Part shown: piece by piece, positions 3,162 to 29,950 of the stretch
Layout: every line of letters begins with the position of its first letter
Position numbering within the stretch: position 1 is the first letter of the stretch
Assembly (NCBI GenBank): GCA_944326565.1
Contig: CALVEL010000003.1
Span: 124,001 to 188,000 of the forward strand
Length of the DNA stretch: 64,000 bases
Direction of reading: 5' to 3'
Source: Candidatus Gastranaerophilales bacterium
Lineage (GTDB): Bacteria; Cyanobacteriota; Vampirovibrionia; Gastranaerophilales; Gastranaerophilaceae
Translations under genes and position numbers: made by a program
Notes under the pieces: model-generated
What the model saw: the letters and a program-made list of their open reading frames with translations, nothing else
The model's database searches: none
What the model was told of the DNA's origin: nothing

Positions 3162-3383
3162 TTATACATCTATATCTTTAAAAAATTCTTCCATCGGAAT
3201 ATTCAAAATTTTTGACATCTTAAATAAAGCAATCGCAGAAGGAGAAGTTAACCCCTGTTCAAGTTTACTGACATGACTTACGCTCATGTCAATCATTTCC
3301 GCAAATTGTTCCTGTGAAAGATATTTTCTTATTCTTTCAACTTTTATATTACGCCCTAATTTATGTTTAATGTCATCTTTCAT
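3162..3383 (-). CDS. XRE-family HTH regulator, pilin pair A
   Basis: The 73-residue protein is essentially one Cro/CI-type helix-turn-helix: helix 1 is NIKVERIRKYL, the SQEQFAEMIDMSVSHVSKLEQG core contains helices 2-3, and a C-terminal helix pair (LFKMSKILNIPMEEFF) follows. It is divergent from the pilin gene at 3490, with 106 nt between starts. No Shine-Dalgarno precedes the ATG, and TATAAT lies 7 nt upstream, so the mRNA looks leaderless, as is known for lambda cI from PRM. It probably represses or switches the adjacent pilin promoter through the palindrome at 3440-3455. Confidence 0.85.
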   Translation of the reverse strand: MKDDIKHKLGRNIKVERIRKYLSQEQFAEMIDMSVSHVSKLEQGLTSPSAIALFKMSKILNIPMEEFFKDIDV

Positions 3384-3401: not shown

Positions 3402-3430
3402 TTGACAAATTGAGTATAAGTGAATATTAT
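3402..3430 (+). promoter_or_regulatory. Promoter of pilin gene A
   Basis: TTGACA (3402-3407), a 17-nt spacer and TATTAT (3425-3430) give a near-consensus sigma70 promoter directed at the pilin gene. Confidence 0.7.
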
Positions 3431-3439
3431 AATAGTAAC

Positions 3440-3455
3440 TATCAATATATTGATA
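3440..3455. promoter_or_regulatory. Perfect 16-bp palindrome, candidate XRE operator
   Basis: TATCAATATATTGATA reads identically on both strands and begins 10 bp after the -10 box, covering the expected transcript start of the pilin gene. A dimeric HTH protein bound here would block initiation. It shares the outline TATC-N8-GATA with the palindrome at 29177-29192 in another regulator/pilin gap. Confidence 0.6.
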
Positions 3456-3489: not shown

Positions 3490-4170
3490 ATGAATAAATC
3501 GGCCTTCACAATGGCGGAAGTCTTAATTACTCTCGGAATTATCGGAATTGTTGCCGCAATGACACTGCCTGCACTCATTAATAAAGCAGAAGAGTATATA
3601 CTAAAGCAACAGTTTAAAAAAGCATATAATACCTTGCAAAATGCCCAATTACGCATATACGCCGACACAGAAAGTTATTACAGTTGTTATTATTACAAAA
3701 ATACAGCCCAAACCAGATTCTCCGATTGTCGTTTAATGGGGGAACATTTAAAAAAGATTCTAAATCCTGCAGTTGTTTGTGATGGCAGTGCCTATGCAAA
3801 AGGCTGTATCCCGAAATATAAGGGTATAGACACAGTTTCTATAGAAAACAACCCGAATGCTGATGTAGAAAATATCTTGAGAAACTGTGGCGGATTTTCT
3901 GAAAACAGAATTCTTAACAATGCTACAACCTGGGTATTGAAAGACGGGACTATAGTCGGCTGGTATAATTATAATAGTGTAGGTTACGGTCCATTGATAT
4001 ACGTCGATATAAACGGAAACAAACGACCTAACAAATGGGGATATGATATATTTCCTATGATATGGAGAAGTGATGAACAAAGAGTCTGGCTTGACGCGGA
4101 CGGTGTTTGTACATTTACGCAAAAGGGCGGGAAAAGCAGCAAGCAGATGTTACAGGATATTTGGAAATAA
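3490..4170 (+). CDS. Type IV pilin/pseudopilin-like protein, pair A
   Basis: This 226-residue prepilin has a very short leader (MNKSA) followed by FTMAEVLITLGIIGIVAAM, with the conserved Glu at +5 and a hydrophobic N-terminal helix. The residue before the cleavage site is Ala instead of the usual Gly. The globular part contains six or more cysteines and the motif VDINGNKRPNKWGYD shared by most pilins of this window. An AAGGAG site lies 6-7 nt before the ATG. The gene is divergent from an XRE regulator and ends in a hairpin terminator. No assembly machinery is nearby, so a role in a pilus, secretion pseudopilus or DNA uptake cannot be assigned. Confidence 0.88.
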   Translation: MNKSAFTMAEVLITLGIIGIVAAMTLPALINKAEEYILKQQFKKAYNTLQNAQLRIYADTESYYSCYYYKNTAQTRFSDCRLMGEHLKKILNPAVVCDGSAYAKGCIPKYKGIDTVSIENNPNADVENILRNCGGFSENRILNNATTWVLKDGTIVGWYNYNSVGYGPLIYVDINGNKRPNKWGYDIFPMIWRSDEQRVWLDADGVCTFTQKGGKSSKQMLQDIWK

Positions 4171-28881: not shown

Positions 28882-29142
28882 TTATTCATCACCTACTGAA
28901 AAATTTTCAGGCAAATCTTTTTCCAATTCCTGCATAAATTCAGAAATTGACAATCCAAATGCCCCTGATAATTTGAAAAGAGTAGTTAGTTGAGGATCTT
29001 TCACAGCTCTTTCCAAATCACTCAAAACGGATGACGGAATATCATACTCCGCACCGAGCATAAATTGACTTTTATTTCCGCGCAAACGTTTCACTGTTTT
29101 TGCAATTGCGTTAAATATAATTTTCTTTTTAACATCTTGCAT
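28882..29142 (-). CDS. XRE-family HTH regulator, pilin pair C
   Basis: The 86-residue protein is a divergent Cro/CI-type HTH: a basic helix (FNAIAKTVKRLRGNK), SQFMLGAEYDIPSSVLSDLERA as helices 2-3, then LTTLFKLSGAFGLSISEFMQEL and an acidic tail. It is the least canonical of the four pilin-linked regulators. A -10-like CAAAAT lies 7 nt before the ATG and no Shine-Dalgarno is seen. It is divergent from pilin gene C, and the palindrome at 29177-29192 lies in the gap between them. Confidence 0.75.
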   Translation of the reverse strand: MQDVKKKIIFNAIAKTVKRLRGNKSQFMLGAEYDIPSSVLSDLERAVKDPQLTTLFKLSGAFGLSISEFMQELEKDLPENFSVGDE

Positions 29143-29157
29143 ATTTTTAATTTTGAA

Positions 29158-29163
29158 TATAAT
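29158..29163 (+). promoter_or_regulatory. -10 box of pilin gene C
   Basis: TATAAT lies 14 bp before the 16-bp palindrome. The -35 region (around CTTGCA at 29136-29141, spacing 16) is weak, which suggests a promoter that may need activation. Confidence 0.45.
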
Positions 29164-29176
29164 ATATTTAATATCC

Positions 29177-29192
29177 TATCGCGTACGCGATA
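29177..29192. promoter_or_regulatory. Perfect 16-bp palindrome, candidate XRE operator
   Basis: TATCGCGTACGCGATA is fully self-complementary and unusually GC-rich for this AT-rich region. It lies between the pilin -10 box and its ribosome site. It has the same TATC-N8-GATA outline as the palindrome at 3440-3455 but a different core. Confidence 0.65.
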
Positions 29193-29209
29193 ATAATATG
29201 GAGGATTTT

Positions 29210-29950
29210 ATGCACAATAGAAAAGCCTTTACTATGGCAGAAGTGCTTATTACTTTAGGCATAATCGGAATTATTGCAGCTATGACAATTCCAAATCTTA
29301 TGGGAGCATATAGAAAAAAAGTTGTGGAAACAGAACTGCAAAGAGCTTTTTCGATAATTTCTCAAACAATCAAAATGTCTGAAGTGCAAAATGAAAGTGC
29401 TGCCTACTGGTCATACCCCACTATAGGTGCAGGTTCTTCTCTTGCAGGAGTATTGCAAAATGAAGAGTTCATTAATTTCTATATCAAACCTTATATAAAG
29501 TATATTAAAACTGAAAGAAAAAACATCAAAGTTTACTATTCTGATAAAACACAATCGTATTTGAGAAACTACATTAATAAATTCCCACAATTTATTCTTG
29601 CAGATGGACTATTTTTACAGTTTGCCCCAAGAATAGGTGACATAGGCGGTTATATAATGATTGTATATGTAGGAACAACAAACAGAAATAAAAAAGAAGA
29701 ATTCGTTGAAGGTAAAAATTTATTCGCTTTTACTGTCAATATAGATGACTCCTCAAGCAAAGTCGGACTTATTCCTCAATGGTATCTTAACTGGTCATGT
29801 CAAAAATTGGAGGATGAGCGTAATACTTTTATTAACAATTGCAGGAAAAACCCACGTGAAACAAGCGGAGTGGCATCCTCAATTTATTGTACTTATATGA
29901 TTTATTGCAATAATTGGGAAATTCCTGAGGACTATCCGATAAAATTCTAA
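29210..29950 (+). CDS. Type IV pilin/pseudopilin-like protein, pair C
   Basis: The start is set at 29210 (MHNRKA-FTMAEVLITLG) because GGAGG lies 5 nt upstream; the open frame extends 19 codons further into the promoter region. The 246-residue product has Glu+5 and Ala at -1. Its globular part is the most divergent of the six: the shared motif is degenerate (VGTTNRNKKEEFVEGKNLFAF), and four cysteines cluster in the last 50 residues. It converges on cysS. Confidence 0.86.
   Translation: MHNRKAFTMAEVLITLGIIGIIAAMTIPNLMGAYRKKVVETELQRAFSIISQTIKMSEVQNESAAYWSYPTIGAGSSLAGVLQNEEFINFYIKPYIKYIKTERKNIKVYYSDKTQSYLRNYINKFPQFILADGLFLQFAPRIGDIGGYIMIVYVGTTNRNKKEEFVEGKNLFAFTVNIDDSSSKVGLIPQWYLNWSCQKLEDERNTFINNCRKNPRETSGVASSIYCTYMIYCNNWEIPEDYPIKF

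Follow-up and report, generated by a model that had tools for sequence, protein, structure and literature searches.

A small XRE regulator, its predicted private operator and an exchangeable pilin gene in Candidatus Gastranaerophilales

The controller (C) proteins of restriction-modification (R-M) systems, such as C.BclI, C.Esp1396I and C.AhdI, are small, single-domain XRE proteins whose helix-turn-helix (HTH) binds to operators lying by their own gene (PMC3874152). The regulator described here, XRE C, resembles them in size, in its single domain and in its fold (best matches with Z scores of 12.3 and 11.6), but it differs in having no R-M genes beside it, in its SpoIID-like, pilin and cysS neighbours and in its divergent gene order. 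Moreover, its system is set apart by many paralogues per genome and by a pilin cargo that can be exchanged. XRE C also has HTH_3 in common with divergent XRE repressors of the Cro/CI, SinR and ImmR kind; palindromes of 15–20 bp are typical for dimers of such HTH proteins (PMC12255303), and the operator here measures 16–18 bp. Unlike those repressors, XRE C, at 86 residues, has neither a sensor nor a peptidase as a second domain. A third point of comparison is RptR, a small local repressor of phage defence islands, whose gene stays linked to its binding site from genome to genome, in some cases with different neighbours (PMC12255303). Co-retention of gene and site is likewise seen for XRE C, but the RptR operator differs (6-bp TAGCTA repeats), as do its targets.

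Type IV pilin variation systems, for their part, keep the prepilin N-terminus conserved and vary the body. The pilins considered here have the same conserved N-terminus and changing body, but in contrast to those systems a regulator and operator are linked to each pilin, and the exchange takes place between species under a fixed switch. While local XRE autoregulation is already known, a search of open-licence papers found no description of XRE–pilin pairs or of pilin expansion in Melainabacteria, and a set of dozens of private XRE–operator–pilin units in one genome, conserved under exchange of the pilin, is undescribed in the literature so searched.

The window analysed is a stretch of 64,000 nucleotides, C3:124001-188000 of a genome of 1.87 Mb. 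XRE C is encoded on the minus strand at 28882–29142 as an 86-aa, single-domain XRE/HTH_3 regulator (Pfam HTH_3, PF01381, E 6.6e-7; 29.7 bits against a curated cut-off of 23), with a recognition helix at about PSSVLSDL. Its AlphaFold2 model (pLDDT 90.9) consists of five helices, and among solved folds it comes closest to the controller proteins C.BclI (Z 12.3, with an rmsd of 1.6 across 75 residues) and C.Esp1396I; the five-helix, single-domain fold is therefore shared with C.BclI, which was also matched in a sequence-profile search (E 3.5e-7). Membership among the R-M controllers was rejected on gene neighbourhood and not on fold. A toxin-antitoxin arrangement with an XRE antitoxin of the HipB kind, which would form one operon, was also set aside, since here the XRE and its partner, a pilin, are divergently arranged. 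Similarly, a phage origin was rejected, in that the patterns of this protein found no relative in viral contigs, although distant ones may exist. The neighbours of XRE C are a SpoIID-domain gene and the pilin, both assigned by Pfam, followed by an ORF whose sequence reads as cysS. Relatives in the named genome collection include records of Candidatus Gastranaerophilales and Melainabacteria, several of them labelled gut or rumen. Other genes adjoin some of these relatives (L246, L256, L257, L262, L270, L273, L236 and L239), including short LuxR-type HTH proteins, IDLDGVLNDYV (nucleotidase/HAD-like) proteins and a nuclease-like exported protein, all named by reading their sequence only.

On the opposite strand, pilin C (29210–29950, plus strand) is a 246-aa type IV pilin-like protein with an N-methyl motif (Pfam E 1e-5) and DUF6613 (E 5e-9). 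The prepilin N-terminal cleavage/methylation motif scores 25.3 bits for PF07963 against a cut-off of 21.2, and 21.5 for NCBIfam TIGR02532 against 16.3. Pilus machinery is also encoded in the genome, a search for the PF00437 secretion ATPases having returned a best E of 1e-126 and further matches. The structure model of pilin C (pLDDT 40) is too poor for use.

Between the XRE start at 29142 and the pilin start at 29210 lies a gap, most of which (29158–29209) had been marked in the initial annotation as holding a GC-rich perfect palindrome. The palindrome is indeed present, as the 16-bp TATCGCGTACGCGATA at 29177–29192, and it scores above all 100 shuffles of its own gap. In this genome the symmetry ends there, with C at 29176 opposite A at 29193, while a symmetric outer pair occurs in orthologues with CTATCGCG(T/A)ACGCGATAG. 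The predicted operator of the divergent XRE is accordingly given in its 18-bp form, CTATCGCGTACGCGATAA, at 29176–29193. A putative pilin promoter -10, TAATAT (29160–29165, plus strand), stands 11 nt before the palindrome and is supported by the orthologous gaps. Upstream of it, at a distance of 17 nt, is a putative -35, TTGCAT (29137–29142, plus strand), read from sequence as a weak consensus match (3/6) and coinciding, on the opposite strand, with codons 1 and 2 of the XRE (ATG CAA). The pilin ribosome-binding site, GGAGG, lies at 29200–29204 on the plus strand. Since the promoter is weak by consensus and was missed by a consensus promoter scan, it is counted here as putative.

A search of 383 genomes from the family (Candidatus Gastranaerophilales) for the motif TATCGCGNACGCGATA and for a reversed-pattern control found the motif in 21 of them, as a single site in each, and the control in none. 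An XRE-C homologue (51–100% identical) begins 33–35 nt from every one of the 21 sites. Within the genome under study, no second site occurs at two or fewer mismatches, and sites at three mismatches are few and rarer than those of the reversed control. An AT-rich genome with 63 sites of the outline TATC-N8-GATA might lead one to suspect a chance match, or a site for some other, global regulator. The exact motif, however, is unique per genome and always beside the same type of XRE; that it is confined to a single kind of place across 383 genomes rules out a chance origin, and the alternative as a whole is scarcely credible. Very probably, the 86-aa XRE, whose gene lies 34 nt away on the opposite strand, has this palindrome as its one private operator, and the two belong to a fixed control unit with an exchangeable pilin. 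This comparative linkage strongly suggests that a dimer of XRE C binds a palindromic operator next to the gene encoding it.

Conservation within the gap points the same way. Across 30 orthologous gaps, conservation is highest in the 18-bp operator, with a mean of 1.67 bits per column, compared with 0.97 for the 31 columns toward the XRE and 0.32 for the 24 columns toward the pilin. The distance from operator to XRE is constant (31–33 nt for the 18-bp form), while that to the next gene is variable, and at three loci (L236, L238 and L243) the operator is kept at the same XRE distance though no pilin follows closely. In another orthologue (L239), both arms have changed symmetrically to TCACGCG...CGCGTGA, keeping the core and altering the outer bases. 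Two XRE-C orthologues, L228 and L240, are without the site. In the former (genome G029), an ORF resembling an IS1-type InsA protein is found in place of operator and pilin beside the XRE. An intact -10 accompanies an intact operator in 19 of 20 gaps, versus 4 of 10 gaps with a changed operator (Fisher p 0.002), although these counts overstate the number of events because the orthologues are mutually related.

The type of operator also follows the recognition helix of the regulator. In XRE homologues 43–61% identical to XRE C, the operator is mostly longer and reads TATCGC-N10-GYGATA around a centre resembling TTCGCGAA, or alternatively TATC(A/T)CGTTCACGAACGTGATA. Every XRE with an [IV]PSSV[IL]S helix whose site could be recognised (34 of 34) has the 16-bp form, as against the 22-bp form for 32 of 34 XREs with other helices (p 4e-17); restricting the comparison to XREs less than 62% identical leaves a split of 3/3 and 32/34 (p 0.001). 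Both p values are inflated by shared ancestry, and the counts behind them, drawn from mutually related orthologues, likewise overstate the number of events. The most telling detail is that three XREs only 52–58% identical overall, but with a C-type helix, have a C-type site. The gaps of more distant paralogues contain unrelated palindromes, for example GTTTCYATATGGAAAC, TTCTATAYATAGAA, AAAATGTCTCGTACGAGACATTTT and TGGACATAATTATGTCCA. The initial proposal, paralogous regulators whose sites have diverged, is thus supported, as a different helix goes with a different, longer operator and other XRE–pilin gaps carry palindromes of their own.

A different reading would have the palindrome act as RNA, with the 5′ leader of the pilin transcript forming a hairpin that controls translation or stability. 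The leader can be folded into a 5–6 bp stem that draws in the ribosome-binding site (-8.2 kcal/mol), but this fold is no better than those of shuffles (z -1.1 to -1.25), and the leader beyond the motif is not conserved. Moreover, a hairpin would account neither for a motif held at a fixed XRE distance even with no pilin close behind nor for a motif type that follows the recognition helix, and this reading is considered very improbable.

The window holds a second such pair, pair A, with XRE A at 3162–3383 (minus strand) and a pilin at 3490–4170 (plus strand). Its palindrome, TATCAATATATTGATA at 3440–3455, lies 9 nt past a -10, TATTAT (3425–3430), which agrees with the earlier observation that the palindromes of A and C occupy nearly the same position after the -10. 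Among 24 fetched exact sites of this palindrome in the family, 16 lie 63–65 nt from an XRE-A homologue (68–100% identical), which argues that it too is an operator, of a different XRE; the remaining eight have no XRE-A homologue so placed. The outline TATC-N8-GATA that A and C share had been taken as the mark of a regulator family, expected to concentrate in XRE–pilin gaps. Neither idea is supported. The outline is found four times in the window against 1.4 expected, a weak excess, and only two of its 63 sites in the genome fall inside the 31 XRE–pilin gaps, the gaps other than those of A and C being without it, so that it was rejected as a signature of such gaps. XRE A is a distant relative of XRE C (29% identity, seventh of 30 among its neighbours by rank), the nearest paralogues of C in the genome have palindromes without this outline, and in L239 the outer bases themselves have changed. 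The initial annotation held that palindromes equally frequent in unrelated places would tell against its reading; this is true of the outline and untrue of the motif TATCGCGNACGCGATA. Similarly, its picture of matching outer bases around different cores stands within the XRE clade of C (TATCGC-N4-GCGATA versus TATCGC-N10-GCGATA) and finds no support for A and C, whose common edge is most simply a coincidence, though possibly a shared contact.

Genome-wide, there are 50 HTH_3 matches and 77 matches to the prepilin N-terminal (N-methyl) motif, and across the genus the number of pilin-like genes per genome ranges from 8 to 79. Divergent HTH_3–pilin neighbours less than 250 nt apart, measured domain to domain, number 31, leaving 46 pilins without such a partner. 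In 10 of the 31 gaps there is an inverted repeat that surpasses 95% of shuffles, against 1.6 expected (binomial p 1.6e-6), and these repeats are unlike one another between gaps. Since 7 of 45 gaps before unpaired pilins also have such a repeat, XRE pairs are not alone in showing an excess, but the paired gaps do outscore the unpaired ones (Mann-Whitney p 0.008). Strong palindromes were also noted upstream of two pilins with no HTH_3 neighbour, C1:325834 (L096, z 7.6) and C4:110979 (L086, z 4.4), which may have a regulator of another family nearby. The gap before a further pilin, C4:44858 (L099), contains TTGCATRCRTGCAA twice, once on either side of the promoter region. To assign a private switch to each of the 31 pairs is an extrapolation beyond pairs C and A.

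While the switch is conserved, the pilin beneath it is not. XRE C is common to five genomes of the genus, and the flanking DNA aligns across the locus. In one of them (G009), a DNA identity of 81% extends across the XRE and the gap into the pilin gene for about 31 codons, after which the pilin body is unrelated; identity resumes about 25 nt past the pilin stop (breakpoints as read from blastn coordinates), so that synteny is intact and only the pilin body is replaced. Family-wide, the 20 pilins in slot C fall into 12 clusters with a median body identity of 24%, compared with a median of 83% for their XREs, and 15 of the 20 have relatives (E <1e-15) outside the slot, many beside other XREs. Across the genus, 86 locus pairs have XREs at least 70% identical, and in 26 of these the pilin bodies are less than 35% identical. 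By these alignments, the pilin under switch C is exchangeable between related species while XRE and site stay fixed, with recombination as the presumed route. In two loci of genome G013 (L164 and L187), the N-terminal segment of the pilin is apparently duplicated (HAFTLAEGATHV...HAFTLAEVLIT). Comparative sequence evidence demonstrates that operator and XRE are linked specifically and uniquely, that helix type corresponds to operator type, and that pilins are exchanged.

A mechanism can be proposed from this arrangement. A dimer of XRE C would sit on 29176–29193, most likely making contact through the helix at residues 37–44. Because the site is just past the pilin -10, at roughly +4 to +21, bound XRE should hinder RNA polymerase and block transcription of the pilin, and repression of the pilin by XRE C is accordingly thought probable. 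On the opposite strand, the same site is near the -35 of the XRE promoter, for which reason bound XRE would be expected to limit its own synthesis. Dimer binding, autoregulation and a signal that releases repression are all steps that we infer. The XRE gene, operator and promoter evolve as one fixed control unit, beneath which pilin genes are exchanged, presumably by recombination at their conserved N-terminus. It could instead be that XRE C activates the pilin, or is a dual switch, with the palindrome as an activating site; the controller proteins, its closest folds, are known both to activate and to repress (PMC3874152), and the pilin promoter is weak by consensus. The location of the site downstream of the putative -10 is nevertheless one suited to a repressor, whereas activators in this class have their sites upstream of the -35. 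Activation of the pilin is considered unlikely, while activation at the XRE's own promoter is possible.

More broadly, a tentative generalization, nearly as probable as its contrary, is that such genomes carry some 30 independent, single-target switches, each an XRE with a private operator gating one pilin, and that surface repertoires evolve through exchange of pilin bodies. The XRE-C clade offers dozens of natural regulator–operator pairs in which changes of helix and operator can be read in parallel, and XRE specificity is thus directly testable. If true, the XRE family would be a natural record of joint change in recognition helix and operator, and the 77 pilin-like genes in 1.87 Mb, 31 of them beside an XRE of their own, would represent an unusual way of choosing surface fibres.
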